From assembly GCF_002257665.1 (NCBI RefSeq), contig NZ_MQWB01000001.1, positions 432,502 to 496,501 on the forward strand: DNA of 64,000 nucleotides. The letters are read 5' to 3'. Made by a program: the position numbers and the translations under genes. Positions 2,233 to 46,118 of the stretch are shown here, one piece after another. Source of the DNA: Rubricoccus marinus (lineage in GTDB: Bacteria > Bacteroidota > Rhodothermia > Rhodothermales > Rubricoccaceae). The notes under the pieces were generated by a model. The model did not search any database. It was not told where the DNA came from and saw nothing but the letters and a program-made list of their open reading frames with translations. How positions within the stretch are numbered: position 1 is the first letter of the stretch; each line of letters opens with the position of its first letter.

Positions 2233-3408
2233 ATGGCCTCCGTCATTCTCTCCGCCGCTCGCACGCCCGTCGGCTCCTTTAACGGCGCGCTCTCGTCCGT
2301 TCCGGCCCCTCAACTCGGCAGCGCGGCGCTTACCGGCGCGATGGAGCGCGCGGGCATCCAGGGCTCGGACCTCTCCGAAGTCATCCTCGGCAACGTCGTC
2401 ACCGCCGGCGAGGGGCAGGCGCCCGCCCGCCAGGCCGCGCTCGGCGCAGACATCCCGGACTCCGTTCCGTGCCTGACCATCAACAAGGTCTGCGGGTCCG
2501 GCATGAAGGCCGTCCTCCTCGCGGACCAGGCCATCCGCGCCGGCGACGCCGACGTGGTCGCCGCGGGCGGCATGGAGAACATGAGCATGGCGCCGTTCCT
2601 GCTGGACAAGGCGCGGACGGGCTACGGTTACGGCAACGGCACGCTGATCGACTCCCTCTTCCACGATGGCTTGCGCGATGCCTACGACGGCAACGCGATG
2701 GGCGTCGCCGCCGACCTCTGCGGCGACACGTGCAACGTGCCGCGCGAGCGCCAGGACGCCTTCTCCATCGAGAGCTACACGCGCGCCCAGGCGAGCATGG
2801 AGAACGGCCGCTTCGCGCAGGAGATCGTGCCGGTCACCATCAAGGGGCGCAAGGGCGACACCGTCGTGGAGCAGGACGAGGAGCCGCCGCGCACCAACTT
2901 CGACAAGATCCCGAGCCTCCGGGCCGTGTTCACCAAGGACGGGACCGTGACCGCCGCCAACGCGAGCACGATCAACGACGGCGCCGCGGCCATGATCGTG
3001 GCGAGCGAGGAGTGGGCGAGCGCCAACGGCAAGAAGCCTCTGGCGAAGATCGTCGCCACCTCGCAGCACAGCCAGAAGCCCGTCGAGTTCACGACGGCGC
3101 CGATCGAGGCGATCAACAAGGTGCTGCATAAGGCCGGCCTCTCGCTGGACGATATCGACCTATTCGAGATCAACGAGGCGTTCGCCGTCGTGGCGCTCGC
3201 GGCGCAGGACGCGCTCGGCATCCCGAGCGAGAAGCTCAACGTGCGCGGCGGCTCCGTCGCCGTGGGACACCCCATCGGCGCCTCTGGCGCGCGCATCATG
3301 ACCACGCTGCTCTACGCGATGGAGGAGGCCGACGCCCGCTACGGGCTGGCGGCGATCTGCATCGGCGGCGGCGAGGCCACGGCGATCATCCTGGAGCGCG
3401 GCGCGTAA
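2233..3408 (+). CDS. Acetyl-CoA C-acyltransferase (thiolase)
   Basis: Thiolase II family enzyme of 391 residues, the usual length. It condenses two acetyl-CoA or cleaves 3-ketoacyl-CoA. The nucleophilic Cys87 lies in NKVCGSGMK, the C-terminal His in GHPIGASGAR, and the second catalytic Cys in CIGGGEA, so all catalytic residues are present. The conserved GASGAR loop is itself encoded by a copy of the iterated motif. I chose the ATG at 2233, which gives the canonical N-terminus MASVILSAARTPVG; the frame is open further upstream but that part is repeat-derived. With the 3-hydroxyacyl-CoA dehydrogenase at 4703 it suggests a short-chain acyl-CoA pathway (beta-oxidation or acetoacetyl-CoA formation); which direction is not decidable from sequence. 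Confidence 0.95.
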   Translation: MASVILSAARTPVGSFNGALSSVPAPQLGSAALTGAMERAGIQGSDLSEVILGNVVTAGEGQAPARQAALGADIPDSVPCLTINKVCGSGMKAVLLADQAIRAGDADVVAAGGMENMSMAPFLLDKARTGYGYGNGTLIDSLFHDGLRDAYDGNAMGVAADLCGDTCNVPRERQDAFSIESYTRAQASMENGRFAQEIVPVTIKGRKGDTVVEQDEEPPRTNFDKIPSLRAVFTKDGTVTAANASTINDGAAAMIVASEEWASANGKKPLAKIVATSQHSQKPVEFTTAPIEAINKVLHKAGLSLDDIDLFEINEAFAVVALAAQDALGIPSEKLNVRGGSVAVGHPIGASGARIMTTLLYAMEEADARYGLAAICIGGGEATAIILERGA

Positions 3409-9747: not shown

Positions 9748-11670
9748 CTACCGCTCCGGCATCTCACGCAGCCGCGCCGCCAGCCCGCTCGCGCGCCGCT
9801 CGGCCACGCCTGCGGCCTCCGCCATCTGCTCCGCCGCGCCTAGGATCGTAAGCGACGGCCCGCTAGAGGCTTCTGGCGCCGTGCCCTTCGCGCGGGTGAC
9901 GGCGGTGTAGACGAGCTGGCGCGAGAGGCGCCGCGCCTGCGTCGAGCCCGGCGTGGGGAGGACGAGGAGCACGTCGTCGAACTCCGAGCCCTGGCTTTTG
10001 TGGATCGTCATGGCCCACGCCGTCTCGTGCTCCGGCAACTGCGCGACGGGCACCTCGCGCACGCCGTCCTTGCCCTCGAAGACCACCACGGGCCTCTGGC
10101 GCCAGCGGGCCTCGGCGGATGGCCGCCAGACCACGCCCACGTCGCCGTTGAAGAGGTCGCGGTCGTAGTCGTTCTCGGTCACGAGGATCGGCCGGCCGTG
10201 GTACCACGGGTCGGTCGGCGAGAGGCGCAGGCCGTCCTCGCTCAGGCGCCGCTCGACGAGCCGGTTGAGGGCGTACACGCCCCAGCGTCCGCCCCGCGTC
10301 GGCGCGAGCATCCGGAACGCGGCGGCGGCGCTCAGCGCGGCCTCTGGCGTGCTCGCGGTGCACAGCGCGCGAGCGTGCGGCTCGGCATGGGTCCAGATGG
10401 CCTCGGCGCGGTCGGCGGGGTCGAGGCAGACCACGTCGCCAGAGGCTCCGTCTGTCAGCACATCCCGGACGCCCGCTTCGTCGCCATCGCGCAAGGCGGA
10501 GGCGAGGCGCCCGATGCCGGAGTCGGCCGCGAAGCGGTGCGAGACGACTAGGCGCACGACGGCGTCGGCCATCGCGTCTGGCTCCCGTAGGGACACACCG
10601 CTGGTGTGTCCGCTCGGTGCCTCGCCAGAGGCGCTGTCGCCAGAGGCCTCTGGCGTCGTCACGCCTAGCGCGTTGCAGAACGCCTGGAAGCCGGGGCCGA
10701 CTGCATCTCGCGCGCCCGCCTCGCAGAGGTCGCCGAAGACCGCGCCCACGCCGACACTCGGAAGCTGGTCCGCGTCGCCGAGAAGCACAAGCCGCGCGCC
10801 GGGGCGCAGCGACGCCAGAAGCGCGTCGAACATGAGCAGGTCCGCCATCGAGGTCTCGTCCACGACGACGACATCGGCCGGGATGGGCGAGGCCGGTCCG
10901 CGGCCCCACGCGCGGCGCGTGGGCGAGTACTTCAGCAGGCGATGCAGGGTGACGGCCTCCACGGCGAGCCTCTGGCGCACGTCGTCCGAGACGGGCAGCG
11001 CGGCGCTGCGCGAGGCGATGGACTCCGTGAGGCGGTTCGACGCCTTGCCGGTCGGCGTCGCGAGCGCGACCGTCAGATCCGGGTCGGCCGCGAGGAGCAG
11101 TGCCAGGAGCTTGGCGACGGTCGTCGTCTTGCCCGTGCCCGGTCCGCCCGCCACGACAGCCATTCTGTGTCGCAGAGCGCCCGCCGCCGCCAGCGCCTGC
11201 CGGTCGCCCGCACCGGCCTCGGGAAACAGCGCCGAGAACGTCTCGCGGACGGCCTCTGGCGCTTGCCCGGACTCGCCCACCAACTCCGCGATCCGGCTCG
11301 CCACGCGCCCTTCGGCGCGCCAGAGGCGGTAGAGGTAGAGCCGCCCGTCGCCATCCAGCACGAGCGGCGCGACGGTCCCGCCGTCGCTCACGACTGGGCT
11401 CTCGTTCAGCCTTTGCACCCACGCGTCGGTCTCGGGGAGCCGTACGGCCGCTCCCGGAAAGGGCTCGCCTGCCCACGCGTCCAGTTCGACGGCCGTGTGC
11501 CCGCGCCGCTGCATCGCGCTCACGAGCACGGCCGCGAGCGCCACCTCGCGGGCGCGCTCGGGATCATGCTCTGCCAGCATCCGCGCCAGGGCGAGGTCGA
11601 TGGGCGCCACGTCTTCGCTCTCGGCGAGGGCATCCAGCAGGGCGGTGGTCTCGGGGGCGAGGGTTCTCAT
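9748..11670 (-). CDS. recD: Exodeoxyribonuclease V subunit alpha (RecD helicase)
   Basis: 5'-3' helicase subunit of the RecBCD double-strand-break repair nuclease, 640 residues. Walker A reads VVAGGPGTGKTTTVAKLLAL, Walker B VVVVDETSMADLLMFDAL, followed by LVLLGDADQLPSVGVGAVF; near the C-terminus AMTIHKSQGSEFDDVLL and RQLVYTAVTRAK are the superfamily 1B motifs V and VI. An insertion of roughly 25-30 residues (encoded around 10583-10660) contains a GGACACACC hairpin and several iterated motifs, reading PEASGDSASGEAPSG. It is the third gene of recC-recB-recD, separated from recB by a repeat-filled 256-base gap. Confidence 0.95.
   Translation of the reverse strand: MRTLAPETTALLDALAESEDVAPIDLALARMLAEHDPERAREVALAAVLVSAMQRRGHTAVELDAWAGEPFPGAAVRLPETDAWVQRLNESPVVSDGGTVAPLVLDGDGRLYLYRLWRAEGRVASRIAELVGESGQAPEAVRETFSALFPEAGAGDRQALAAAGALRHRMAVVAGGPGTGKTTTVAKLLALLLAADPDLTVALATPTGKASNRLTESIASRSAALPVSDDVRQRLAVEAVTLHRLLKYSPTRRAWGRGPASPIPADVVVVDETSMADLLMFDALLASLRPGARLVLLGDADQLPSVGVGAVFGDLCEAGARDAVGPGFQAFCNALGVTTPEASGDSASGEAPSGHTSGVSLREPDAMADAVVRLVVSHRFAADSGIGRLASALRDGDEAGVRDVLTDGASGDVVCLDPADRAEAIWTHAEPHARALCTASTPEAALSAAAAFRMLAPTRGGRWGVYALNRLVERRLSEDGLRLSPTDPWYHGRPILVTENDYDRDLFNGDVGVVWRPSAEARWRQRPVVVFEGKDGVREVPVAQLPEHETAWAMTIHKSQGSEFDDVLLVLPTPGSTQARRLSRQLVYTAVTRAKGTAPEASSGPSLTILGAAEQMAEAAGVAERRASGLAARLREMPER
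10591..10611. repeat. GGACACACC hairpin element inside recD
   Basis: Perfect 9-bp inverted repeat GGACACACC/GGTGTGTCC with a 3-base loop, preceded by CCCGTAG. It encodes part of the extra segment GHTSGVSLRE in RecD and, like the element at 7978, sits next to iterated motifs. Confidence 0.75.
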
Positions 11671-11726
11671 GCGGGCCAGTGGGGAGTGGCCAGTAGCCAG
11701 TGGGGAGAGAGGCAGGGGGAGGGGCC
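11671..11726. repeat. Degenerate CCAGTGG tandem repeat before recD
   Basis: Imperfect copies of GGCCAGTGGGGAGTGG and GGCCAGTAGCCAGTGGGG directly precede the recD start codon (minus strand). The same words occur before recB (15779-15815) and inside recB (about 14508-14540). Confidence 0.75.
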
Positions 11727-11770
11727 GCCCATCGCGCCAGAGGCCTCTGGCGAGCGAGCCTCTTCCATCC

Positions 11771-11907
11771 TGTCATCCCGAACGAACGTGAGGGATCTAC
11801 TCGCCGAATGGCGTGAGGCTACAACTGACTCCGTGTGCGGCTGAGGGTAGATCCCTTCTCTCCCTACGGTTCGAGACAGGCGTCGCTTCGCTTCCTTCGA
11901 GATGACA
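11771..11907. repeat. Imperfect palindromic element with TGTCATC ends
   Basis: About 137 bases bounded by TGTCATC and GATGACA, with inner inverted segments GAGGGATCTAC and GTAGATCCCT. It lies between recB and recD. The ends match those of the shorter element at 50901-50989, so the two probably belong to one family of non-coding palindromic repeats. No ORF inside. Confidence 0.75.
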
Positions 11908-11926
11908 GAACTGGAGTGGTGCAGCT

Positions 11927-14900
11927 TCATCCAGCCTCTGGCGCCCGAGGCTCGCTTTCGCGCGCGCCGTCTCCTGCACCCGGCGCCTCCTCCGCCAGAG
12001 GCGCGAACAGGAGCGCGTCCAGCGCCTCCACGAGCGCGCGAGGCGGGCGGACGACGTGGAAGCCCGTCGCGGCCTCCAGGTTCTCGCCAGAGGCCTCTGG
12101 CGCACTAGTCGGTGGCGCAACCCCGCGAAGGAAGACGTAGGCCGCACCGCCGACGTGCCGGTCGTAGTCGTAGTCCGCGAGGCGCGTGCGGAGGTAGCGA
12201 TGCAGGCCGGCGAGGTAGAGGTGCGCCTGCAAGAGGTAGTGGTGCGCGCGCATCGTCCGCGCCAGAGGCTCCGCGCCGTAGTGCGCCGCCGTCGGCCCGA
12301 GGTGATTGCTCTTCCAGTCGATGAGCGACCAGCGCTCCTCGCCCGGGTGCTGCACGACGAGGTCGGCCGAGCCCACGAACAGCCCGTCCACGGCCTCTGG
12401 CGCGAGGCGCGCGACGACCTCCGCGTAGCTCTGGAGTACTTCGTCGCCGTGCTCGCGGAACAGGTCGGCGATCTGCGACGGCGCGACCCGCGCCAGAGGC
12501 GCCACGAACCGCCACTCGGCCGCGAACCCGCCGCGCGGCACGTCCTTGAGCGCGAACCCGAGGCCCGGCATCTCGGTCTCCGCGAGCGTCGCGATCATCT
12601 CGGACACGTCCGCCAGAGGCTGGCAGACGGCGCGGTGGACGCGACTCGTGCCGTCGTGCAGACCGTGGCGGCGAAGCACACGCGCGATGGCCTGCGCGTT
12701 GGAACTCTCGAGATCGCGGTACGAGTCGGGCAGGCGGAAAACGGCGTTCTCCAGCACCTCGTGCAGGCACGTCCCGGCACGCGGGCCGGAAGCGAAGGCG
12801 AACAGCCCGGCCTCTGGCGTGTCGCCGTCGGCCTCGGGCGCGGCGTCGCCCTCGTCGGCGCGGTCGTCGCGCGGAGCGCCAGAGGCCCACGACGAGAAGC
12901 TGGCGCGCGCCTCGGGCGAGTGGACGCGGTCGCGCGCTCCCGCACCGAGCGTGCGGACGCCAGAGGCGTCTTCGGCCTGCGCCTCGCGCTCCACGCGCCC
13001 CCCGCCCTGCGGCAGCGGCGCGACGGCCATCACGTGACCCAGTTCGGCCCGCGCGATCCACTCTTCGAGCGTCGCGAGACTCGTCCGCAGGTGCTCCAGG
13101 GCCGTCTTGCGGGTCGCGTCGTCGAAGCTCGCGAGACCCTCCGCCAGAGGCAGTGGGAGCGTGCGCAGGAGGTGGCCGATGCCGCTGGCGTGGCCGCCGC
13201 TGAGCGGTCCCCAGACGACGTAGAGCCGCTCGCGCGCCCGTGTGAGCGCGACGTAGGTGAGGCGGAGGCTTTCGGCGAGACGCTCGGCGTCCGCGAGCGC
13301 GCGGTGGGCCTCTTGCGCCGGGCTCCCGAGGTCGTAGACCGCCCCGCCCGAGCCGACGTGCGCGACCGGCGGGCTGGCCTCGAACGTGCCGTGCCACGTC
13401 GCCTTCTCCTTGTCGTCCCACACGAACGGCGCGAACACGACCGGGTACTCTAGCCCTTTCGCATTGTGCATCGTCACAAGCTGGACGGCGTGGTCGTCGC
13501 TCTCCAGCCGCATCTCGACGCGCTGCCGCTCGGCAAACGTCCGCTCCGTCCGCGTGCGGACCCAGTGCAGGAGTTCGTCCACGGACCGGTCCTCGGAGGT
13601 CTCGGCCTCGTGGAGCAGTTCGAGGCAGTGGCGCAGGTTCGTCAGCCGCCGCTCGCGGTCGGCGTACTGGTGAAGCCTCTGGCGCACGTCTTCGCGGCGC
13701 ACCCACGCCGTCAAAGCGCCGAAGACTCCGTTGCGGCGCCAGAGAGCGCGGTCCTTTCGGAGCCCTTCGACGACCTTGAGCATCCGGCCCTGCTCGTCGC
13801 TGTCGCCAGAGGCCGCGGCGAGGTCGGCGCCGGTCCAGCCCCACATCTCGGTCGCGAGGGCGGCGCGGACGCGGCGGGAGTCGGTCGGCCGCGCCATGGC
13901 GCGGAGCACGCGCTCGATTTCGTCCATCTCGCGCGAGGTCCGGATGTCGTCGCCCTTGCCGACCACCGCGACGACGTTCGCGCGCCGCAGGCGGTCCTGA
14001 AGCTCTCGCGCCTGCCCGTTCGTGCGCGTCAGAACCGCGAGGTCGCCCGCTTCGAGCCGGCGCCAGAGGCCCGTCTTGGCGTCGCGGATCTCGGCGCGCT
14101 CGTCGTTGAGCAGGCGGCAGATCTCCGCCACGGTCGCCTCCATCGCGGCCTCTCGCGCGTTGCCCTTGGTGACGATGTTGCCGCGCCCGCGCTCCAGGCC
14201 GTCCCCGGCCCACCACACGAACGGCGCCACTGGCGTCACGCCGCGAATCCCGGGCTCGCTCGCATTCGCGGCCACAGGCTCGAAGGGGATGCCGTCGTAG
14301 ATGAAAGGCTTGCCACCCGTTCCCAGTCGCGAGAACAGCGCGTTGACGGCGCTCACGAGGTCGGGCGACGAGCGGTAGTTGGTCCCGAGCGTGAACCGCC
14401 GGTCGGCGTCGCCGCGCGCTTCCAGATACGCGAATACGTCGGCGCCGCGGAAGGCGTAGATGGCCTGCTTCGGGTCGCCGATAAAGAAGAGGGGGCGGCC
14501 GGTGGCCGGGCCAGTGGGGAGTGGGGAGTGGACAGTGGCGGACTCGCCAGAGGCCTCTGGCGACGCGCCAAAGGCGCGGCGGAAGATTCGGTACTGCGTC
14601 GGGTCGGTGTCCTGGAACTCGTCGATAAGCGCGACCGCGAACTGGTCCTGGATGGCGCGGCGCAGCGAGGGGCCTGTGGCCGGGTGCGCGAGCGCGCGGT
14701 CCAGCCGCTCGATCAGGTCGTCGAACGTGAGCAGGCTCGCGGCGGCCTTGGCGCGGCGCGTGCCGGCTTCGAGCGAAGCGACAAAGGCGTGGATCAGCGC
14801 CGTCTCCAGCCGCGAGATCGCCGCGACGACATCTGTGCAGGCCCGGAATCCCGCATCGGCCTCCACGTCCGAAACGGCCTCTTTGCCGGCCTTCGAGCCG

Positions 14901-15778
14901 TTCTTGATCGCCGCGCTCGCGCGCTCCACCGTCGCCATCTCGACGGCGCCGATCTCGCCCCAGTCGCCTCTGGCGAAGGCGTCCACGCGGGCGAAGACGC
15001 CGCGGAGGTCGGTCGTGAACGGCTTGCTCTTGGTGTCCATCCGCCAGAGGCGCGGGTCGACGATGTCCTCTTGCGCCGCGGGGTGCCAGGCGTCGCGGAG
15101 CCGCTGGCGCGCGTCGCGGACCTCGGCCATCGCGTCCGCCAGAGGCTCGGCGGGCGGGAGGATGCGCGTGTCCACGAACTGCGTGGCGTTGGCGGCGTGC
15201 TGCGTGAGGCGGTCCAGCGTCCACCCCGCGGCGAGCGCCAGGGGCCCGAGGTCGGTGTGGCCGCCGACGAGGCCGTGCCACACGTCTCGGGCCACGCGGG
15301 TCTGGAGCCGCGCAGCGTCCTCGGTGAAGTCGAACGCGAACGGCTCGCCGCTCTCGAACGCGCTCCGCTCCAGCACGCGCTTGCAGAAGCCGTGGATGGT
15401 GAAGACCGCCGCCTCGCCGACCTGCCCGAGCGCGTGCCGCAGCCGCTGTGCCCCGGCCTCGCGGGCCTCTGGCGTCGCGCCGTAGCGCGCGAGAAACGGC
15501 TCGACCACGCCAGAGGCCTCGCCGCCCTCGAAGGCGTCCAGCGCTTCGCGGAGCGCCCGCCGGATGCGGGTCTTGAGTTCCTCCGTCGCTGCCACGGTGA
15601 ACGTGACGACGAGCAGCTTGCGGAGGTCGGGAGTGCCCTCGCCGAGCGCGCCGTCCTCCAGCACGAGGCGCAAGACGAGCTCGGTCAGCGCGTACGTCTT
15701 GCCCGTCCCGGCGCTGGCCTCGACGAGCGTGATGCCGGGCGCCAGAGGCACGTCGAGGGCCTTAAACGTCTCGGTCAT
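11927..15778 (-). CDS. recB: Exodeoxyribonuclease V subunit beta (RecB helicase-nuclease)
   Basis: 3'-5' helicase and nuclease subunit of RecBCD, 1283 residues from the ATG at 15778 (N-terminus MTETFKALDVPLAPG). Walker A reads VEASAGTGKTYALTELVLRL, Walker B ALIDEFQDTDPTQYRIF, motif III LFFIGDPKQAIYAFRGADVF; helicase motifs V/VI include VQLVTMHNAKGLEYPVV and LTYVALTRARERLYV. The C-terminal nuclease domain keeps the D-x-K motif in WSLIDWKSNHLG, so cleavage activity is expected. About 20-25 extra residues between FRRAFG and LFFIGDPKQ are encoded by a CCAGTGG tandem repeat plus an iterated-motif palindrome (14498-14569). The frame is open upstream to 15877, but that part is repeat-encoded. Confidence 0.96.
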   Translation of the reverse strand: MTETFKALDVPLAPGITLVEASAGTGKTYALTELVLRLVLEDGALGEGTPDLRKLLVVTFTVAATEELKTRIRRALREALDAFEGGEASGVVEPFLARYGATPEAREAGAQRLRHALGQVGEAAVFTIHGFCKRVLERSAFESGEPFAFDFTEDAARLQTRVARDVWHGLVGGHTDLGPLALAAGWTLDRLTQHAANATQFVDTRILPPAEPLADAMAEVRDARQRLRDAWHPAAQEDIVDPRLWRMDTKSKPFTTDLRGVFARVDAFARGDWGEIGAVEMATVERASAAIKNGSKAGKEAVSDVEADAGFRACTDVVAAISRLETALIHAFVASLEAGTRRAKAAASLLTFDDLIERLDRALAHPATGPSLRRAIQDQFAVALIDEFQDTDPTQYRIFRRAFGASPEASGESATVHSPLPTGPATGRPLFFIGDPKQAIYAFRGADVFAYLEARGDADRRFTLGTNYRSSPDLVSAVNALFSRLGTGGKPFIYDGIPFEPVAANASEPGIRGVTPVAPFVWWAGDGLERGRGNIVTKGNAREAAMEATVAEICRLLNDERAEIRDAKTGLWRRLEAGDLAVLTRTNGQARELQDRLRRANVVAVVGKGDDIRTSREMDEIERVLRAMARPTDSRRVRAALATEMWGWTGADLAAASGDSDEQGRMLKVVEGLRKDRALWRRNGVFGALTAWVRREDVRQRLHQYADRERRLTNLRHCLELLHEAETSEDRSVDELLHWVRTRTERTFAERQRVEMRLESDDHAVQLVTMHNAKGLEYPVVFAPFVWDDKEKATWHGTFEASPPVAHVGSGGAVYDLGSPAQEAHRALADAERLAESLRLTYVALTRARERLYVVWGPLSGGHASGIGHLLRTLPLPLAEGLASFDDATRKTALEHLRTSLATLEEWIARAELGHVMAVAPLPQGGGRVEREAQAEDASGVRTLGAGARDRVHSPEARASFSSWASGAPRDDRADEGDAAPEADGDTPEAGLFAFASGPRAGTCLHEVLENAVFRLPDSYRDLESSNAQAIARVLRRHGLHDGTSRVHRAVCQPLADVSEMIATLAETEMPGLGFALKDVPRGGFAAEWRFVAPLARVAPSQIADLFREHGDEVLQSYAEVVARLAPEAVDGLFVGSADLVVQHPGEERWSLIDWKSNHLGPTAAHYGAEPLARTMRAHHYLLQAHLYLAGLHRYLRTRLADYDYDRHVGGAAYVFLRGVAPPTSAPEASGENLEAATGFHVVRPPRALVEALDALLFAPLAEEAPGAGDGARESEPRAPEAG
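14498..14569. repeat. Repeat-derived in-frame insertion within recB
   Basis: A CCAGTGGGGAGTGG tandem repeat is followed by the palindrome CGCCAGAGGCCTCTGGCG. On the minus strand it is translated as roughly ASPEASGESATVHSPLP. Its position, between two conserved helicase segments that are normally a few residues apart, indicates a tolerated in-frame insertion. Confidence 0.75.
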
Positions 15779-16003
15779 GCGGGCCAGTGGGATGGGGCCA
15801 GTGGCCAGTTGCGGAGACGCGAGGCGGGGTACTGGGTACACGGATGCTCGCTTCTGGCGCCAGAGGCCGCGCGCCATGACGTACCCCGCACCCGGTACCC
15901 CGTGCCTCTCCCGCCAGAGGCCAGCGCGCGCGAGTCCCGAGCAGGAGGAACCCGGAACTCGGAACCGGGAGCTGTAAGGCCGGCGAAGCCTACTCGGAAC
16001 CCC
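15779..16003. repeat. recC-recB spacer made of three degenerate repeat families
   Basis: 225 bases with no gene. From left: CCAGTGG words (15779-15815), GGGTACTGGGTACACGG, a CTTCTGGCGCCAGAGG near-palindrome, GTACCCCGCACCCGGTACCCC (about 15890-15903), a CGCCAGAGG copy, and GGAACCCGGAACTCGGAACC (about 15947-15966). All three word families occur elsewhere in the window next to start codons. Confidence 0.75.
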
Positions 16004-19000
16004 CTACTCATCCTCCATCGCGGAAAAGACCGGCCCCCAGAGGAGGCGCGACCAGCGGTCGAACGACGCCGTCATGGTGTCGAGCGGGGCGCGGCGGCGG
16101 TAGCAGAGCGCGACGGCGGGGTCGGTGATGTCGCAGAACGTCTCGTACTGGCCGTCGAACGCCTTGCGGACATCGGGCTTGAGGACGGCGAACTGCTCTG
16201 GCGTGTCCAGCGCGACGGAGCGGCCCATGCGCATGGGCTTCCAGGCCTCTTGCGCGAGGATCTTGCGGCGGAAGTCGTGCTCCCACGAGCCGCGGCGCTG
16301 CCGGGCGTGGTCGTAGGAGGCGCGCGCGAAAAGAGGCGGCGGCACGTGCTGGAACGCGATGGCGCCGCGGATCAGGAACTGCAGCAGCGCCCGCGCCTCA
16401 TCCTCCGCCAGAGGCCCGAAGGCCGCGCTCGCGTCGGTCCCGTGGACGACCGTCCGGCGCACGCCGTCTACGGTCTCGTCGGCGCAGAGCGCGAGGTGAT
16501 CGGCCCAGGCGAAAAGGAGGTCCGTCCCGCGGAGCTTGCCGGGGCGCCAGCGGAGAGCGCCGGCCTCTGGCGCGTAGTCCACCGAGGCGTCCACGCGCCA
16601 GCGGCCCTCGGGGCAGGCGACGTGCAGCGCTCGCTTCTCAGTCTCGCCGTGCGAGCGGACGTGATCGGCCACGTCGCCGACGGCGCGCATCGCGCGGCCG
16701 ACGTACACGTCGGCCAAGTCGCCGGGCGGAAGCTGGCCGGAGCGTTGCAGGCGGTCCGCGATGGTGGGGGCGTCGCGTCCCAGCAGGTCGCCGTCCAGGA
16801 CATCGCGCTTGACGCCGTGGAAGGCGAGGCCGTCGAGTTCGACCGGCTCGTCGTCCGCGAGCGCGGCGTCTTCCAGGCGGAGGTCCAGGCCGAGCGCGTC
16901 CGTGTGCGCGCGGCATGGGTTGGACCACGCCCGGGCGAGCGCCGCCGCGGTCGTCTCGTGCGTCTCCTCCGGGAGCACGAACTCCAGGTCGGGCGCGGGT
17001 GCCTCGAAAAAGCGGAGTCCCTCGGGCGCGCCGGGCTCGGGCTGCGGGAGAACGTGCTGCTCGGCGAACGTGAACAGCTCTGGCCTCTGGCGCGAGACGT
17101 AGCCGGGGCTCGACGGCTGGAGCGGGTGCGCGATCACGAAGGCGCCAGAGGCCTCGGCGCCAAACGTCTTGCGGCACGCGTCGCGGAACGCGTCGAGCGC
17201 GACCGAGGCGGCGCGCTCGGCGTTGTCCATGTGCGAGCGGGCCACGCGGCTCAGAACGAGCCTCTGGCGCGCGGCGAGGACCGCCGCGAGGAAGCTCAGG
17301 CGGTCGTCGGCGTGCAGGTCGGGATCGCCCGCGCGGCGCTCGTGGCCGAGGAGGTCGAAGGCGGGCCGCGCGTCGGTCCCCGGGAAGCCGTCGCCCAGGC
17401 CGACAACCGCGAGCACGCGGAACGGCACGTGCCGCAGCGCCAGAGGCGAGCCGAACGTCACCTTGCCGGTCAGGTGCGGCTCGCGCCGGTCGATGCCGGA
17501 CAGCGCGCTCTGCAGGTGGCCGCGGACCGTCGAGGCCGTCACGACGGTCTCGGGCTCGTCCAGCGCCACCAGCCGGTCGATGGCGGTCCGTAGCGCGACG
17601 AGTGCGCCCAACTCTGCCTCTTCGCGCGGCATGAACACGCCGTCCACGAACAGGAGGAGGTCCTCGCGCCACGACGCCAGAGGCCGCCTCTGGCGCAGGT
17701 GCGCGAGCGCGTCGAACAGTGCCGTCGCCCACTCGGCGAAGCGGCCGAGCAGGTCGGCGCCGTCCAGCCCCGCTTCGGCGACGGGCAGGCGGCCCATCAC
17801 CACCTCGTCTTCGCGGCCGATGGCATAGCCGACGAGCAGGCGGTCGAGGCCGAAGCGCCACGTGTGCACGTCGTCCTCGGGCAGGCCATAGCCCGCCTTG
17901 TGCGCGGCGTCGCGGCCCCAGTGGACGCGCGCCTCGCGCACCCAGTCCAAGAGCGTGCCCAGTTCGCTTTCGTGGATGCGCGCCGCGCGACGGATCACCG
18001 GCACATCCAACAGGCCGATCAGGTCCGACGCCGTCGCCCGCCCGGAGTCGAGCGCGAGAACGCGCGCGAAGGCGTCGAGCACGCGGGCCTCTGGCGAGAA
18101 CGGCGGGTCCGCGATGTGATACGGGACGCGCACGCCCGCCACCTTTTCCGAGCCAAAGACGGCGTCGATGAGCGGCGCGTAGGTCGTCATGTCCGGCACG
18201 AGCACGCCGATCTCGCCGGGGCGGAGGTCACCCAGCGTGTCGAAGGCGTCGAGGATCTCGTCGCGCAGGACTTCCAGCTCGCGCAGCGGTGAGTGGCACT
18301 CGTGGATGCGGATGGAGCGGTCGTCCTCCGGGCACGTCACTGGCGCGGCGGGCGGCGTGTCGGCGACGAGCGCGGCCTGGAGGGCGTGGAGCGCGCACAG
18401 GGGATCACCAGAGGCCTCTGGCGCGGAGGGGGGGGCATCTGACTCGCACGGCTCGGGCTCCCACTTGTGGCCCGCTACGTCGCGCATCACCGCGACCCAG
18501 TCGCGGGTGCGGCCGCCGAGGTCGCGCAGAAGCGGGTGGCGCTGCATCGCCTCTGGCGTTCGGCGTTCGGCCTCTGGCGCCAGAGGTGCGGCGACGGCGG
18601 CGTAGGCCGTGACGGGCACGTGGCGGCCGAGCGCGTGGAGCGCGCGCCAGAACAGCGGCGGCACGACGGTCGTGCCGAACAGGCTCACGCGCGCCAGCGT
18701 CTCGCGGACCTCGTCGGACTGGCCGAGCACGTCGAGCAGGCGCAGCGTCGAAGTGGCGCGGTCCATGACCCGCCCCTCGCGGTTGCTGGGAGCGCTCTGG
18801 AGCAGGTGGCACCAGAGGTGGGCCTGCCACGGCTCGTCCTCCCAGCCGTGGGCGACGGTCGCGCCAGAGGCCCACGCGGCGAGGCAGTCCGTGCGGTAAA
18901 GCTGGTAGTCGTCGTAGAGCTGCGCGAGGCGGCTCGCGAGCGCCATCGTGCCCGAGCCTTCCTCGCCCTCGTCGGCAGCGCGCTCCAGGTAGGCCCGTAC

Positions 19001-19360
19001 GCGGTCATACGTGCCGCCAGAGGCGGGCAGGTCTTCCAGCACGCCGAGGATGCGCCACGTCAGGCCGTCCACCTCGAACGGGTGGCCGCGCTCGCCCTCT
19101 GGCGGCATGGACTCCGGCACGAGCTGGCGCATCAGGCTCGTGACCACCTCGCGCGGCGAGCGCATCTCGATGGACGCCGCGCAGCCCAGCTCGCGCGCCA
19201 GCTCGTTCTCCACCCACGTGCGGAGCGCCTGGTTCTGCGCCACGAGGATGGTCTCGCGCTGGAACGGCGCCAGCGGCCTCTGGCGCATCGTCTCCGCGAG
19301 GCGGGTCAGGAGCGGTTCGAGGCGCGGCGCGGTGAGGACGTGGAGCCCCGGGTTGGGCAC
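16004..19360 (-). CDS. recC: Exodeoxyribonuclease V subunit gamma (RecC)
   Basis: 1118-residue RecC, the subunit that holds RecB and RecD and recognises Chi in the well-studied enzymes. It has the typical opening LHVLTAPRLEPLLTRLAETM, a segment VAQNQALRTWVENELAREL, and the degenerate, inactive helicase and nuclease-like folds, so no Walker motif is expected. Start is GTG at 19360. A promoter-like TAGATTCG lies on the minus strand at 19386-19393. It follows panC-panD-DUF6483 on the same strand, 59 bases after the DUF6483 stop, and leads recB and recD. Confidence 0.93.
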   Translation of the reverse strand: MPNPGLHVLTAPRLEPLLTRLAETMRQRPLAPFQRETILVAQNQALRTWVENELARELGCAASIEMRSPREVVTSLMRQLVPESMPPEGERGHPFEVDGLTWRILGVLEDLPASGGTYDRVRAYLERAADEGEEGSGTMALASRLAQLYDDYQLYRTDCLAAWASGATVAHGWEDEPWQAHLWCHLLQSAPSNREGRVMDRATSTLRLLDVLGQSDEVRETLARVSLFGTTVVPPLFWRALHALGRHVPVTAYAAVAAPLAPEAERRTPEAMQRHPLLRDLGGRTRDWVAVMRDVAGHKWEPEPCESDAPPSAPEASGDPLCALHALQAALVADTPPAAPVTCPEDDRSIRIHECHSPLRELEVLRDEILDAFDTLGDLRPGEIGVLVPDMTTYAPLIDAVFGSEKVAGVRVPYHIADPPFSPEARVLDAFARVLALDSGRATASDLIGLLDVPVIRRAARIHESELGTLLDWVREARVHWGRDAAHKAGYGLPEDDVHTWRFGLDRLLVGYAIGREDEVVMGRLPVAEAGLDGADLLGRFAEWATALFDALAHLRQRRPLASWREDLLLFVDGVFMPREEAELGALVALRTAIDRLVALDEPETVVTASTVRGHLQSALSGIDRREPHLTGKVTFGSPLALRHVPFRVLAVVGLGDGFPGTDARPAFDLLGHERRAGDPDLHADDRLSFLAAVLAARQRLVLSRVARSHMDNAERAASVALDAFRDACRKTFGAEASGAFVIAHPLQPSSPGYVSRQRPELFTFAEQHVLPQPEPGAPEGLRFFEAPAPDLEFVLPEETHETTAAALARAWSNPCRAHTDALGLDLRLEDAALADDEPVELDGLAFHGVKRDVLDGDLLGRDAPTIADRLQRSGQLPPGDLADVYVGRAMRAVGDVADHVRSHGETEKRALHVACPEGRWRVDASVDYAPEAGALRWRPGKLRGTDLLFAWADHLALCADETVDGVRRTVVHGTDASAAFGPLAEDEARALLQFLIRGAIAFQHVPPPLFARASYDHARQRRGSWEHDFRRKILAQEAWKPMRMGRSVALDTPEQFAVLKPDVRKAFDGQYETFCDITDPAVALCYRRRAPLDTMTASFDRWSRLLWGPVFSAMEDE

Positions 19361-38302: not shown

Positions 38303-40942
38303 TTAGCGCACGACCGTGATGCGCTGCGTGGCGGAGAACGTCTCGCCCTGCGCGCGCACGACGTACACGCCCGACGCGAGACCCGACGTGTCCAGCGCGA
38401 GCGAGTGGACCGACGCCGCCAGAGGCCCCTCGTGCACCGTGCGCACGCTCCGGCCGAGCAGGTCCACGACCTCCACCGTCACGGCCTCTGGCGAGGCGAG
38501 CGTGAGCGCGAGCGTGGTCCCGCTCCGAGAGGGGTTGGCGCCGGTAACCGACAAGACGGCGCCAGAGGCGTTCGGCGAGGCTTCCGCAGCGACGGGGAGG
38601 CTGAAGTCCGCCGTGCCATCCGTCGCGCTCGAGGAGAGGCCCTGGCTGGCGTTGACGCCCAGCCCGCGGCGGGCGAATGCGGCCCAGATGAGGTCGCTGT
38701 TGGCGCCGCTGTAGAGCAGTTCGTCGGCCGCGAGGATGGCGTCGCGGCCGTCCACGAAGCCCGGGCTGCACGGCTGGAGCTTGAGCCCCTGCGTGACGAG
38801 GTTGAGTGCGACCTGGTTGCCCGCGCCGCCGTCGGCGTCGTAGGCGTCGGTGTCGAAGCCGTACCGGTCCACGAGGTCGAGCGTCATGTCCCACAGAACT
38901 GTTGCCCAGACGCTACCGACGCCGTGGGGGATCGAGAGCGTAGTTCCGGCTCCCGAGATCACGCTCTGGTAGGTGAGCGGGTTGACGGCGAAGTCCCGGG
39001 TGTACGGTGCCGGGCGGATGCCCCCTCCGTCCGTGCCCTCGTACTCCAGGTATGTCCCGATGCCCCTCGGGATGTCCTCGCCGGTCTGCATGGTGAGGAG
39101 GAGGCCGTAGTAGTCGCTCCAGCCCTCGCCCATCTGCTCCTGGTTGCCGAGGCATCCCGCGCGGCTGGCGCCGCCGGTGAGCCGGTTGGAAAGCCCGTGC
39201 CCGAACTCGTGGATGACCACGCCCGAATCGAGCCCGCTATCGCGCCGGATTCGAGGCCCGACGTTTACCTGCACGCCAGCCGTGGACCGAAGGAGGGTGC
39301 CCGTGCTGTTCTGCACGAACGACGAGGGAATGCCGACATCGTCGACGCCCCCCGCGGGGAGGCCCATGTTGACGAGGTCTTCAGGGCTGCCGGTCTCGCC
39401 CGCTCCTTTCCGGTCGTTGTTGTAGACCACGGCCGCGATGGCGCCAGCGGCCTCGGCGCTGCGGGCCTTGTCGATGAAGTTGCAATCGCCGCGTTCGATA
39501 AACGCGATGTTGCCCGCCAGCGCCGCCGCGTTCGCGATGGACCCCACCGTGCAGCCGCGCCCGGGGATGCCGTTCGCGTCCACGACGGTGACGAGGAGGC
39601 CGGAGGCGAGCCGCTCAGGGCCGAAGGAGGCTGCGGCGCTCGGGTAGGTGCGTGCCACGCCCGCAGGGGCGGTGACCTCGAAGACGGTGCCGGACCACTC
39701 GTACATCTGCATCCGCCCGGGGCTACCGTCCGAGGGCGTCGCGAAGTTGGCGTTGTTGAGGCACGGGCTCGTCGACTGGCAGGTGTCCGCCCCGCTCTGC
39801 GTTTCCAGGCGCGCCGCGTCCCCACCGGCGCCGCCGCGGCCGAAGTTGTTGACTTGGAAGTTGCCGGCGGCCTCGTCGAAGCCGTACTGGTAGGTGATGT
39901 CGTGGAAGACGTTGCCCCAGTAGAAGAGGTTGGTCACCGCCGCGTCCACGTTGTCCACGGGCTCGGCGTTGAAGTCGTAGGCGAAGTCGAAGACGAGCGA
40001 GGCGCCGCCCTCGGGCTGGCCGCTGGCGGTCGGCGCGCTGGTGTCGTCGCGGTCGAGGTAGGCCCAGACATTGTTGCCGCGGGTGGTGGTGAACTGCTGC
40101 GAGCCGGTGTCGTGCCAGCCCAACTCCGACGCCGTCGCGTCGGCGGGCTTGGCGACGAGCTCGTAGCTGCCGTGGTTGGGGCTCTCGGCAGGCCACGCGA
40201 CCACGCGGTAGCTCCCGCCCGCCACCATGCCGAGGCTGGCCTCTGGCGCCAGAGGCGCGCGCGAGACCGGGGCCACCTCGGCGCCCGAGCCGTGCGCTGC
40301 CGGCCACTGATCGCGAGCGACGAGGTCGTCGGTGGCGAGGACGGAGCCGGTCAGGGCGTCCACGCGGACGGCCCACATCTGCGAGCCGTTGGTGGCGTGG
40401 AGCGTCATCGCCCACGCGAGGCGGAGCGCGCCGTCGGCGGTTGGCTGGTAGACGAGGTGGGGCTCAGTCGCTTCGTAGGCCGTCGCCTCTGGCGTTGGGA
40501 TCGTCTCGCCGGGCTCATCGCTGAGCCACATCGGCCCGACGGGGGCCGGCGTGGACGCCCGGACGTGCGCCACCGCGAGCGCGGACGCGGCGCCAGAGGC
40601 CAGGCTCGGCTCGGTGGCGTTGGCGCGGGCCGCGAGGTTGGACGCGTAGCGCGGGCGGACGGCGTGGACCTTGCCGCTGGCGAGAACGGCCGCGGGCGCG
40701 ATGGCGCCCCAGACCTCGATGCCCGCGTGGCGTTGCGCGAGGTAGACGTACGTGGCACCTGTGCGCCGGTCGAAGTGGCTGTCCGACACGTGGAGGTCAG
40801 CGAGGTCCGAGCCGCTAAACGCGTCGGCGGCGGAGGCTTGGACGTGCTGACGGGCGGCGAGGACGGCGGCGGACTCCTGAGCGAGGATCGGCGCGGAGAG
40901 TCCGAGGGCGAGCAGGGCGAAAAGCGCGTAGCGGAGGCGCAT
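38303..40942 (-). CDS. Secreted M36 (fungalysin) metallopeptidase with T9SS sorting domain
   Basis: 879 residues. A signal peptide (MRLRYALFALLALGLSAPILA) precedes an N-terminal propeptide-like region, the M36 catalytic domain with zinc motif HEFGHGLSNRL and the third ligand region EQMGEGWSDYYGLL, and a PA domain inserted in it (GCTVGSIANAAALAGNIAF ... ERGDCNFIDKARSAEAAGA). The last 80-90 residues (ANPSRSGTTLALTLASPEAV, VEVVDLLGRSVRTV, GVYVVRAQG) are a type A T9SS C-terminal domain, so it is exported across the outer membrane and processed there. Likely degrades extracellular protein. Confidence 0.94.
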   Translation of the reverse strand: MRLRYALFALLALGLSAPILAQESAAVLAARQHVQASAADAFSGSDLADLHVSDSHFDRRTGATYVYLAQRHAGIEVWGAIAPAAVLASGKVHAVRPRYASNLAARANATEPSLASGAASALAVAHVRASTPAPVGPMWLSDEPGETIPTPEATAYEATEPHLVYQPTADGALRLAWAMTLHATNGSQMWAVRVDALTGSVLATDDLVARDQWPAAHGSGAEVAPVSRAPLAPEASLGMVAGGSYRVVAWPAESPNHGSYELVAKPADATASELGWHDTGSQQFTTTRGNNVWAYLDRDDTSAPTASGQPEGGASLVFDFAYDFNAEPVDNVDAAVTNLFYWGNVFHDITYQYGFDEAAGNFQVNNFGRGGAGGDAARLETQSGADTCQSTSPCLNNANFATPSDGSPGRMQMYEWSGTVFEVTAPAGVARTYPSAAASFGPERLASGLLVTVVDANGIPGRGCTVGSIANAAALAGNIAFIERGDCNFIDKARSAEAAGAIAAVVYNNDRKGAGETGSPEDLVNMGLPAGGVDDVGIPSSFVQNSTGTLLRSTAGVQVNVGPRIRRDSGLDSGVVIHEFGHGLSNRLTGGASRAGCLGNQEQMGEGWSDYYGLLLTMQTGEDIPRGIGTYLEYEGTDGGGIRPAPYTRDFAVNPLTYQSVISGAGTTLSIPHGVGSVWATVLWDMTLDLVDRYGFDTDAYDADGGAGNQVALNLVTQGLKLQPCSPGFVDGRDAILAADELLYSGANSDLIWAAFARRGLGVNASQGLSSSATDGTADFSLPVAAEASPNASGAVLSVTGANPSRSGTTLALTLASPEAVTVEVVDLLGRSVRTVHEGPLAASVHSLALDTSGLASGVYVVRAQGETFSATQRITVVR

Positions 40943-41323: not shown

Positions 41324-43096
41324 ATGGAAGACACCCTCGCCCGCCTGTTCCGCGACGCTCTCGCGCAGCTCCCCGACCTCCCCGCCGACTTCGACCCCGA
41401 GACGGTCGAGGTGGACTTCGAGGTGCCCGGCAACCCTGACCACGGCGACCTCGCGACAAACGTCGCGATGAAGCTCGCCAAGCCGCTGCGCCGCGCGCCG
41501 CGCCAGATCGCCGAGGCGCTCGTCGCGAATCTCAACGCCGATCCTAAGCAGGTTGCGGCCGTCGAGATCGCCGGGCCGGGCTTTATCAACGTCCGCCTTG
41601 CAAAGGCGTACCTGACCGACGGCCTGGCGGACATCCTCGCCTCTGGCGACGACTACGGGCGGACCGAGGACGGCGCGGGCAAGACCGCCATCGTGGAGTT
41701 CGTCTCCGCCAACCCGACCGGCCCGCTGACGGTCGGCCACGGCCGCAATGCGGTCCTGGGCGACACCGTGGCGACGCTGCTGACGTGGACCGGCTGGGAC
41801 GTCACGCGCGAGTACTACTTCAACGACGCCGGGCGCCAGATGCGCGTGCTCGGCGAGAGCGTGCGCGCGCGCTACCAGCAGATCGTGGACCCCGAGGCGA
41901 CGCAGAAGACGCTGGAGGACGGGACCGTCGTGCCGGCGAGCTTCCCCGACGAGGGCTACCGCGGCGCCTACATCACCGACGTGGCGCGCGCGCTCTTCGA
42001 CGCCAGAGGCGACGCGCTCATGAGCGCCGAGACGGAGGAGCCGTTCCGCGACGCCGCCCGCGACGCCGTCTTCGCCGAGATCAAGGCCACGCTGGAGCGC
42101 ATGTCGATCCACATGGACAGCTACTTCACCGAGCAGACCGTCTACGACAACAACGCGGTCTGGGACGTGGTGGAGAAGCTCAAGGCGCAGGACCTCGCCT
42201 ACGAGAAGGACGACGCCACGTGGTTCGCGACGGGCAAGCTGGGCAAAACCGTCACGCGCGACGGCGAGACCAAGGCGCAGGACACCGTCCTCATCAAGGC
42301 CTCTGGCGAGCCGACGTACCGGCTCCCGGACATCGCCTACCACCTGGACAAGCTCGCCAGAGGCTATGAGCGCATCGTGGACGTGTTCGGCGCCGACCAC
42401 ATCGCGACGGTCCCCGACGTGATCCGCGGCGTGCGCGCGCTCGCCGGCGACGAGGCGGCGGAGAAGATCGACGTGCTCATCTACCAGTTCGTCACGCTCG
42501 TGCGGAGCGGGCAGCCGGTGAAGATGAGCACCCGCAAGGCCAACTACGTCACGCTGGACGACCTGATGGACGAGGTCAACGCCGCGCTCGCCGCCCAGGC
42601 CGAGCCCGGCCGCGAGGCGAGCGAGGACGCCGGCGCCGACGTGGTGCGCTACTTCTTCCTCATGCGCTCGCCCAACACGCACCTGGAGTTCGACCTGGAT
42701 CAGGCGACCGAGACGGCGGAGAAAAACCCCGTTTTCTACCTCCAGTACGCCCACGCGCGCATCGCGAGCATCATCGACAAGGCTACGGAGGCCGGCATCA
42801 CGGCCTCTGGCGCGGACCTCTCCACGCTTACGCACGAGAGCGCCGTCGACCTCACCAAGGGCCTGCTTCAGTTCCCGGACGAGATCCGCGGCGCCGCCGA
42901 GGCCATGGGCCCGCACCGCTTGGCGACGTACCTCCGCGAGGTCGCAACACTGTTCAACCGCTTCTACCGCGACTGCCACATCCTCGGTGAACCCGCCGAC
43001 ATCGCGGGCGCGCGCTTGGCCCTCGCGATGGCGACGAAAACGGTTCTTAAGAATGGGCTGTCCATTCTCGGCCTCTCGGCACCAGAGGAGATGTAA
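41324..43096 (+). CDS. argS: Arginine--tRNA ligase
   Basis: 590 residues, normal length for class I ArgRS. HIGH-like motif in SANPTGPLTVGHGRNAVLGD, KMSK-like motif in VKMSTRKANYVTL, and the typical C-terminal anticodon-binding helices (NPVFYLQYAHARIASII, ATLFNRFYRDCHIL). The N-terminal segment FEVPGNPDHGDLATNVAMKL is the family Add1 domain. All three TCT and both AGA codons of this gene fall inside iterated-motif copies; elsewhere it uses GC-rich synonyms. ATG start without a Shine-Dalgarno sequence. Confidence 0.97.
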   Translation: MEDTLARLFRDALAQLPDLPADFDPETVEVDFEVPGNPDHGDLATNVAMKLAKPLRRAPRQIAEALVANLNADPKQVAAVEIAGPGFINVRLAKAYLTDGLADILASGDDYGRTEDGAGKTAIVEFVSANPTGPLTVGHGRNAVLGDTVATLLTWTGWDVTREYYFNDAGRQMRVLGESVRARYQQIVDPEATQKTLEDGTVVPASFPDEGYRGAYITDVARALFDARGDALMSAETEEPFRDAARDAVFAEIKATLERMSIHMDSYFTEQTVYDNNAVWDVVEKLKAQDLAYEKDDATWFATGKLGKTVTRDGETKAQDTVLIKASGEPTYRLPDIAYHLDKLARGYERIVDVFGADHIATVPDVIRGVRALAGDEAAEKIDVLIYQFVTLVRSGQPVKMSTRKANYVTLDDLMDEVNAALAAQAEPGREASEDAGADVVRYFFLMRSPNTHLEFDLDQATETAEKNPVFYLQYAHARIASIIDKATEAGITASGADLSTLTHESAVDLTKGLLQFPDEIRGAAEAMGPHRLATYLREVATLFNRFYRDCHILGEPADIAGARLALAMATKTVLKNGLSILGLSAPEEM

Positions 43097-43565
43097 TCGG
43101 CGGCGCTGGCGCGGAACTAGGGAAAGGGGACTGGTAGAGCGGCGCGGCTTCTGGCGCCAGAGGCGCGTTTGGGGTCTGCGGTGAGGGGTGGCTGCCCCCC
43201 GCTTTGCTTCCTCTGATCGAAACGCTGTCCCCTTTGCCAAGGAGGACAGGCCGACCGCCATCCAGGCGGGGCGGCCTTGGGGACTCTCGGAATGGTTCGG
43301 CGCCGAGCCTCTGGCGCCAGAAGCCGAGCGTGGCACTGCTTTTGGGAGTCCTCCCGTCACGCCCTGTCCGCCTCTGGCGCCGTGCAACACCCGCGCGAGG
43401 TGTCTACACAGCTTTCCGTGTGGCGCTCTTGATGTGTCTCGCTCCGATACCCGACCTTTTCCGCTCATCTCCCGGCCCGGGCACCTCGGCGGCGGCACCC
43501 GCGTTGGGGCCCCTTCAGGCCTCCCGCTCCGGAAGGCCCGCTCCTCCCACGCCCGGATCTCCTCG
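43097..43565. other. Long non-coding spacer between argS and the Memo-like gene
   Basis: 469 bases, the longest gene-free stretch. It contains GCTTCTGGCGCCAGAGGCG near 43147, CCTCTGGCGCCAG near 43309 and a CCTCTGGCG near 43371, plus GGACTC and GAGTCC words that could pair across 43278-43358. The frame of the Memo-like gene is open through part of it but the sequence lacks homology to that family. Confidence 0.55.
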
Positions 43566-46100: not shown

Positions 46101-46118
46101 GCCTCTGGCGCCAGAGGC
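46101..46118. repeat. Iterated-motif palindrome, GGCGCC-centred
   Basis: Perfect GCCTCTGGCGCCAGAGGC between the helical unknown and the saccharopine-dehydrogenase-like gene, followed by a TTCACGGTTCACGG double word. Confidence 0.9.

Follow-up and report, generated by a model that had tools for sequence, protein, structure and literature searches.

A non-palindromic DNA word repeated genome-wide in Rubricoccus marinus and its effect on codon choice

Results

The 64-kb stretch of Rubricoccus marinus SG-29T DNA analyzed here (the window) contains the gene argS, in which the 10-mer CGCCAGAGGC (reverse complement, GCCTCTGGCG) occurs five times, as well as a complete recC-recB-recD operon (9748-19360). 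The features discussed below are as follows (window coordinates).

41324-43096, plus strand: argS, arginine-tRNA ligase, 590 amino acids (TIGR00456, 414 bits)
41639-41648, minus strand: motif copy in argS, GCCTCTGGCG on the plus strand, codons GCC TCT GGC (Ala-Ser-Gly)
42001-42010, plus strand: motif copy in argS, CGCCAGAGGC, codons GCC AGA GGC (Ala-Arg-Gly)
42299-42308, minus strand: motif copy in argS, GCCTCTGGCG, codons GCC TCT GGC (Ala-Ser-Gly)
42355-42364, plus strand: motif copy in argS, CGCCAGAGGC, codons GCC AGA GGC (Ala-Arg-Gly)
42803-42812, minus strand: motif copy in argS, GCCTCTGGCG, codons GCC TCT GGC (Ala-Ser-Gly)
43147-43164: near-perfect inverted motif pair just 3' of argS, GCTTCTGGCGCCAGAGGC
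40239-40256: perfect inverted pair, GCCTCTGGCGCCAGAGGC
46101-46118: perfect inverted pair in an intergenic gap
16004-19360, minus strand: recC (TIGR01450, 590 bits, above cut-off; PF04257, PF17946; matches the E. coli structure PDB 1w36_C), candidate reader of the motif
11927-15778, minus strand: recB (TIGR00609, 684 bits, slightly below the cut-off of 696; UvrD domains)
9748-11670, minus strand: recD (TIGR01447, 461 bits, above cut-off; PF21185, RecD_N)

Inverted pairs in the window number 10 of type GCCTCTGGCGCCAGAGGC and 14 of type CGCCAGAGGCCTCTGGCG. Over the 9.6 kb of recBCD the motif occurs 51 times (5.3/kb), a density higher than the chromosome mean.

All three TCT and both AGA codons of argS lie inside its five motif copies, as the original prediction had claimed, and the gene elsewhere uses GC-rich synonyms (TCC, TCG, or AGC for the other 15 Ser codons; CGC or CGG for the other 35 Arg codons). 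Its two further examples are present as described, ETARGG in cphA (position 35184, GAAACCGCCAGAGGCGGC) and GASGAR in the thiolase (position 3277, GGCGCCTCTGGCGCGCGC), as is the exception that it conceded, a TCT at 330 in the gene at 105-1937 (thrS).

The genome (4,430,441 bases, 15 contigs; draft published in PMC5609423) contains 14,176 motif copies, equal on both strands (7,127 + 7,049) and spaced at one per 312 bases, against only 61 (37 + 24) of the word reversed. The window holds 268 exact copies (132 + 136 by strand), where base composition predicts ~0.7, and 1.28 Mb of chromosome holds 4,701, where a motif-masked third-order Markov model predicts 20.5, an excess of about 230-fold. Chance is excluded as the source of the copies. 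Statistics below rest on ~1.3 Mb of chromosome and on whole-genome pattern counts. One-mismatch copies are 4.6-fold over-represented and two-mismatch copies are not; the one-mismatch excess is uneven and concentrated at positions 4, 7, 8, and 10, which suggests a stricter core of positions 1 to 3, 5 to 6, and 9. Among the variants, A to C at position 7 was counted 407 times (50 expected) and C to A at position 4 185 times (7 expected), with 176 and 155 copies for C to A and C to T at position 10 and 157 for G to A at position 8. A literature search gave no paper describing the motif, and neither letter string occurred in the papers listed.

Codon usage was tabulated from 391,766 codons of chromosomal genes (~1.3 Mb), a codon being counted as in the motif if it lay wholly inside an exact copy. 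Genes came from a simple codon-likelihood caller that ignored AGA and TCT in scoring, and their ends are approximate. Motif copies contain 476 of 674 AGA codons (71%) and 1048 of 2144 TCT codons (49%), against 2.3% of all codons, and one-mismatch copies hold another 40 AGA and 190 TCT; in the window alone the shares are 69% and 63%. The prediction that both codons are largely confined to the motif thus stands for AGA and falls short for TCT, about half of which is inside; the opposite outcome, most such codons lying outside, is clearly not seen with AGA, and with TCT the two sides are nearly even. Three codons that the prediction did not mention are also affected (CCA, 41% inside the motif; CCT, 32%; AGG, 31%). 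Outside the motif, in large chromosome regions, AGA makes up 0.6 to 0.8% of Arg codons and TCT 4 to 6% of Ser codons.

Copies are read in all six frames, and 3,071 of the 4,701 chromosomal copies (65%) lie inside genes. Density is nonetheless lowest there (2.8/kb), rising through divergent (7.1/kb) and tandem (11.0/kb) to convergent gaps (17.5/kb), so that gaps are 2.6 to 6 times as dense in copies as genes; within tandem gaps it drops from the upstream stop toward the next start. Compared with four relatives, motif codons show lower amino acid identity than the rest of the same genes (0.52 versus 0.70, 0.49 versus 0.62, 0.45 versus 0.70, and 0.54 versus 0.70). Where the residue is conserved, the ortholog codon differs from the motif codon in every case (19/19 Ser, 20/20 Arg; 39/39).

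The 3.95-Mb scaffold carries 3.5 to 3.8 copies/kb in each of the three large regions read, whereas scaffolds C10, C11, C14, and C15 carry 0.05 to 1.1 at similar G+C; on the latter, TCT and AGA are generally rarer (C11 excepted) and mostly without motif context. Because two of them encode mobilization or transposition genes (a MobC protein beside a Type ISP-like restriction enzyme on C15, 14540-18172; an integrase-core transposase and an RHS protein on C11), the low-motif scaffolds look like acquired or plasmid DNA, with replicon status unproven. A natural control within the same cell is provided by a sulfur/rhodanese cluster (C1:211701-218750) with 38 motif copies and its paralogous cluster on C10 with none, the two sharing ten gene pairs of 56 to 75% identity. 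Several genes of the C10 cluster (C10:30501-40400) are 76 to 90% identical to genes in a relative (G006), which suggests transfer within the family.

The original view that the DNA motif, not the protein, is maintained and shapes synonymous choice is borne out by the six frames, the intergenic enrichment, the differing codons of all 39 orthologs, and the motif-free paralogs. Its placing of this effect at conserved residues is contradicted, since in all four comparisons conservation is markedly lower at motif codons than elsewhere in their genes; the motif therefore settles in permissive places. It probably also shapes amino acids, beyond synonymous choice.

No comparable motif excess was found in 60 relatives or in 393 other genomes sampled from the phylum (0/393), and spread of the motif through the phylum was rejected on the latter count. 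The genome of a same-genus sister species (G001) contains only 99 copies. Relatives without the motif carry other words, which emerged from top k-mers and Markov outliers with no word expected beforehand, so the motif behaves as a dialect: CCGCCAGC is abundant in the sister species (8,020 versus control 1,599) and in G007 (7,454 versus control 2,023), and CCGCCTCGG is abundant in G004 (4,084 versus control 459) and G006 (3,300 versus control 241). In three further family members (G002, G003, and G005), neither word is more than slightly over-represented, if at all. Dialect density peaks in convergent and tandem gaps in G001, G007, and G004, and neighbors within 40 bp lie in opposite orientation in 35/35, 35/42, and 12/12 cases, respectively (close pairs were too few for this count in G006). 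GGCGG is all that the G004/G006 word has in common with the sister species word. Sharing of the motif with phages was rejected, as neither 18-base inverted pair had a match in IMG/VR.

Opposite-orientation neighbors in R. marinus exceed chance out to 300 bp, and with overlapping pairs removed, about 65% of neighbors at 61 to 300 bp alternate. Inside genes, pair correlation puts same-orientation pairs at 0.2 to 0.9 of expectation up to 300 bp and, past 20 bp, opposite pairs close to or above a 1.2 baseline at almost every distance. Repulsion to ~300 bp that spares opposite copies implies strand-specific reading: for a one-strand reader, same-strand neighbors would be redundant, and an orientation-blind reader of double-stranded DNA would ignore relative orientation. 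This strand-aware spacing is the main new clue to the reader. Each chromosomal region read carries the word evenly on both strands, with alternating neighbors and no replication polarity, and replication-polar signals (E. coli-type Chi, KOPS) were rejected because the chromosomal scaffold shows no strand bias along its length. An origin of the opposite pairs by templated inverted duplication was rejected (flanks are no more alike than those of random copies), as was helical or fixed spacing (no clear period).

Both types of inverted pair occur, the -+ type more commonly (285 versus 169); pairs are found 3' of stop codons, and 47% of convergent gaps contain them. After one copy, an overlapping opposite copy requires only 8 more bases. 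Computed from pair counts, the excess over local density and this 2-base overlap is ~2-fold in genes and 1.7- to 2.3-fold between genes. Being about equal inside genes, it led us to reject the dyads as dedicated terminators.

Discussion

The best explanation of these observations is a non-palindromic genome-wide DNA recognition word, kept at the DNA level and dragging codon choice along, most likely as a signal for DNA-break repair or DNA uptake. We infer from the genomic patterns above what reads it, what it does, and in which direction dialects have changed.

As candidate reader we tentatively favor the cell's own RecBCD, for which the motif may, short of being probable, be a Chi-like signal. 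Within RecBCD, Chi is read by the RecC subunit. Here GCCTCTGGCG would be the strand with Chi-like action: RecBCD digesting a broken end and meeting the word in the right orientation would stop destruction and start recombinational repair. Enzymes coming in from the two sides would each read a single orientation, and each strand would for that reason have to be tiled separately. As a by-product, uptake or degradation might discriminate against foreign DNA without the word, and changes in RecC could account for the change of word between close relatives.

A RecBCD-read signal is consistent with the strand-balanced abundance of the word against its rare reversal, with the complete operon in the window, with the chromosomal excess and the scarcity in apparently acquired DNA, and with the same-orientation repulsion, to which the uniformly opposite close pairs of the sister species can be added. 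Like Chi in E. coli (GCTGGTGG) and Pseudomonas syringae (GCTGGCGC), the motif is a non-palindromic, G-rich word, over-represented on the chromosome, for which strand-specific reading is expected in a genome with recBCD. The over-represented octamer of the sister species, GCTGGCGG (the CCGCCAGC strand), is one base from E. coli Chi (7/8 identical) and has already been listed in print among Chi candidates (PMC8022716). At its end, the strand of the R. marinus word has CTGGCG, the center of the experimentally determined P. syringae Chi (PMC5959072), a likeness that could be due to chance in a 70% G+C genome. Among the RecC residues listed as affecting Chi recognition (PMC5959072), those at E. coli positions T40, Q44, L64, W70, and D133 differ between R. 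marinus and the sister species and from E. coli, and Q38, L134, D136, R142, and R186 are kept. The two genes next to recBCD in R. marinus are also next to it in the sister species (contig C4); they have other neighbors in G006 and G007, so recBCD is elsewhere or absent there. The RecBCD proteins of R. marinus and its sister species are only 41 to 45% identical, where the median ortholog pair reaches 75%. As fast evolution is usual for RecBCD, this divergence is no more than suggestive.

Against a Chi-like signal stand the density of the word, about ten times that cited for the E. coli and P. syringae Chi (1 per 312 bp versus 1 per 3 to 5 kb), and its length of 10 bases, which exceeds both Chi words; it differs from them also in its excess of about 230-fold over Markov expectation and in its enrichment between genes. 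Among the dialect genomes, RecBCD was located in R. marinus and the sister species alone. Replichore polarity, characteristic of Chi in E. coli though not in all species, is absent, the opposite of E. coli; it is likewise absent in P. syringae, Haemophilus influenzae, Staphylococcus aureus, and Bacillus subtilis (PMC5959072), and its lack therefore counts against an E. coli-type Chi, not against Chi generally. Finally, a word that forms inverted pairs and is enriched at gene ends looks like a textbook uptake sequence.

A DNA uptake sequence is thus a close rival, possible but on the doubtful side. Here a competence surface receptor would prefer word-bearing DNA, imports would accumulate by drive in permissive sites, and relatives would have dialects. 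Like the DUS of Neisseriaceae and the USS of Pasteurellaceae, the motif is a non-palindromic word of about 10 bases in thousands of copies, without chromosomal orientation bias and rare in acquired DNA. It is enriched 3' of stop codons and in convergent gaps (17.5/kb versus 2.8 coding) and lies in more divergent parts of genes, as DUS do (PMC2397512). Its two inverted-pair types, one commoner, recall the H. influenzae USS (69 versus 40; PMC7811141), and such pairs, together with dialects, here found within one family, are classic for uptake sequences (PMC3630211; PMC7811141). The 4.6-fold excess of one-mismatch copies, not shared by two-mismatch copies, also fits, as do PilB, PilC, PilT, and a secretin, encoded on the R. 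marinus chromosome, and the R. marinus ComEC and DprA. Beside PilT and upstream of the secretin, three proteins with N-terminal hydrophobic stretches and without a Pfam match (C1:690227-693389) are possible minor pilins of the chromosomal pilus. PF07963 pilins in R. marinus lie only on low-motif scaffold C11.

Other observations fit an uptake sequence less well. Published uptake is independent of the orientation of the uptake sequence (PMC1939737) and does not predict repulsion on the same strand only. ComEC and DprA do not discriminate, because they are present in 20/20 genomes tested, with or without the motif. Neither a T2SSE ATPase nor a PF07963 pilin was found in the dialect-bearing sister species (a draft 91% complete and partly masked), and no specific uptake receptor could be named in R. 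marinus. The inverted-pair excess, just ~2-fold after correction for density and overlap, calls for no special terminator role. The motif is three-fold denser than USS (about 1 per 1,000 bp) and belongs to a different phylum; our literature search found no paper that brings DNA uptake sequences together with Bacteroidetes and over-representation. Most genomic traits are common to uptake sequences and Chi (core-genome enrichment, scarcity in acquired DNA, and non-palindromic words). We place the RecBCD-read signal above uptake because same-strand repulsion is predicted by a Chi-like reader and not by orientation-independent uptake.

A word like cyanobacterial HIP1 (GCGATCGC), created or kept by a DNA methyltransferase or a repair process and perhaps marking one strand as self, is improbable. 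HIP1 is likewise extremely abundant, is replaced by alternate words in some species, and is tied to orphan methyltransferases (PMC4390886), and the concentration of the one-mismatch excess at four positions looks as if a core were read. HIPs, however, are palindromic and matched by known methyltransferases, whereas CGCCAGAGGC is not its own reverse complement. No N6_N4 methyltransferase (PF01555) was found in R. marinus, G001, or G004, all with dialects; Eco57I-type matches (PF07669) in R. marinus fall below cut-off, and the one Type ISP-like enzyme examined lies on a low-motif scaffold (C15).

A transcription terminator or RNA hairpin element would suit the pairs 3' of stop codons and in convergent gaps but is very improbable, given that most copies lie inside genes, that most are single and a lone copy cannot form a hairpin, and that the pairs look like a by-product of density and overlap; with an excess of ~2-fold everywhere after overlap correction, the pairs can be explained without terminators. 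Selection for the codons as such, through translation pausing at AGA and TCT, would agree with their rarity outside the motif and is refuted by the use of all six frames, some without either codon, and by the higher density between genes.

We file the motif in none of the Chi, uptake-sequence, or HIP families, in which membership is defined by functional tests. With considerable reservation, we propose that genome words in Rubricoccaceae change fast and tile the two strands independently, that RecBCD repair and self-recognition may co-evolve with the word, and that R. marinus, after the split from its sister species, may have rewritten its chromosome with some 14,000 copies. In that case the word would belong to an extreme Chi system that switches dialects, or would be a word for both uptake and repair outside the two bacterial families known to have uptake sequences. 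Should RecBCD be the reader, the density of this Chi system would be some tenfold that of the systems cited, accompanied by matching recC variants; should the word serve uptake, uptake sequences would extend beyond Neisseriaceae and Pasteurellaceae. Statistics on codon usage, codon adaptation, and gene transfer in this clade would be misread if the motif were ignored, and close relatives with different words make the co-change of a genome-wide word and its reader testable.
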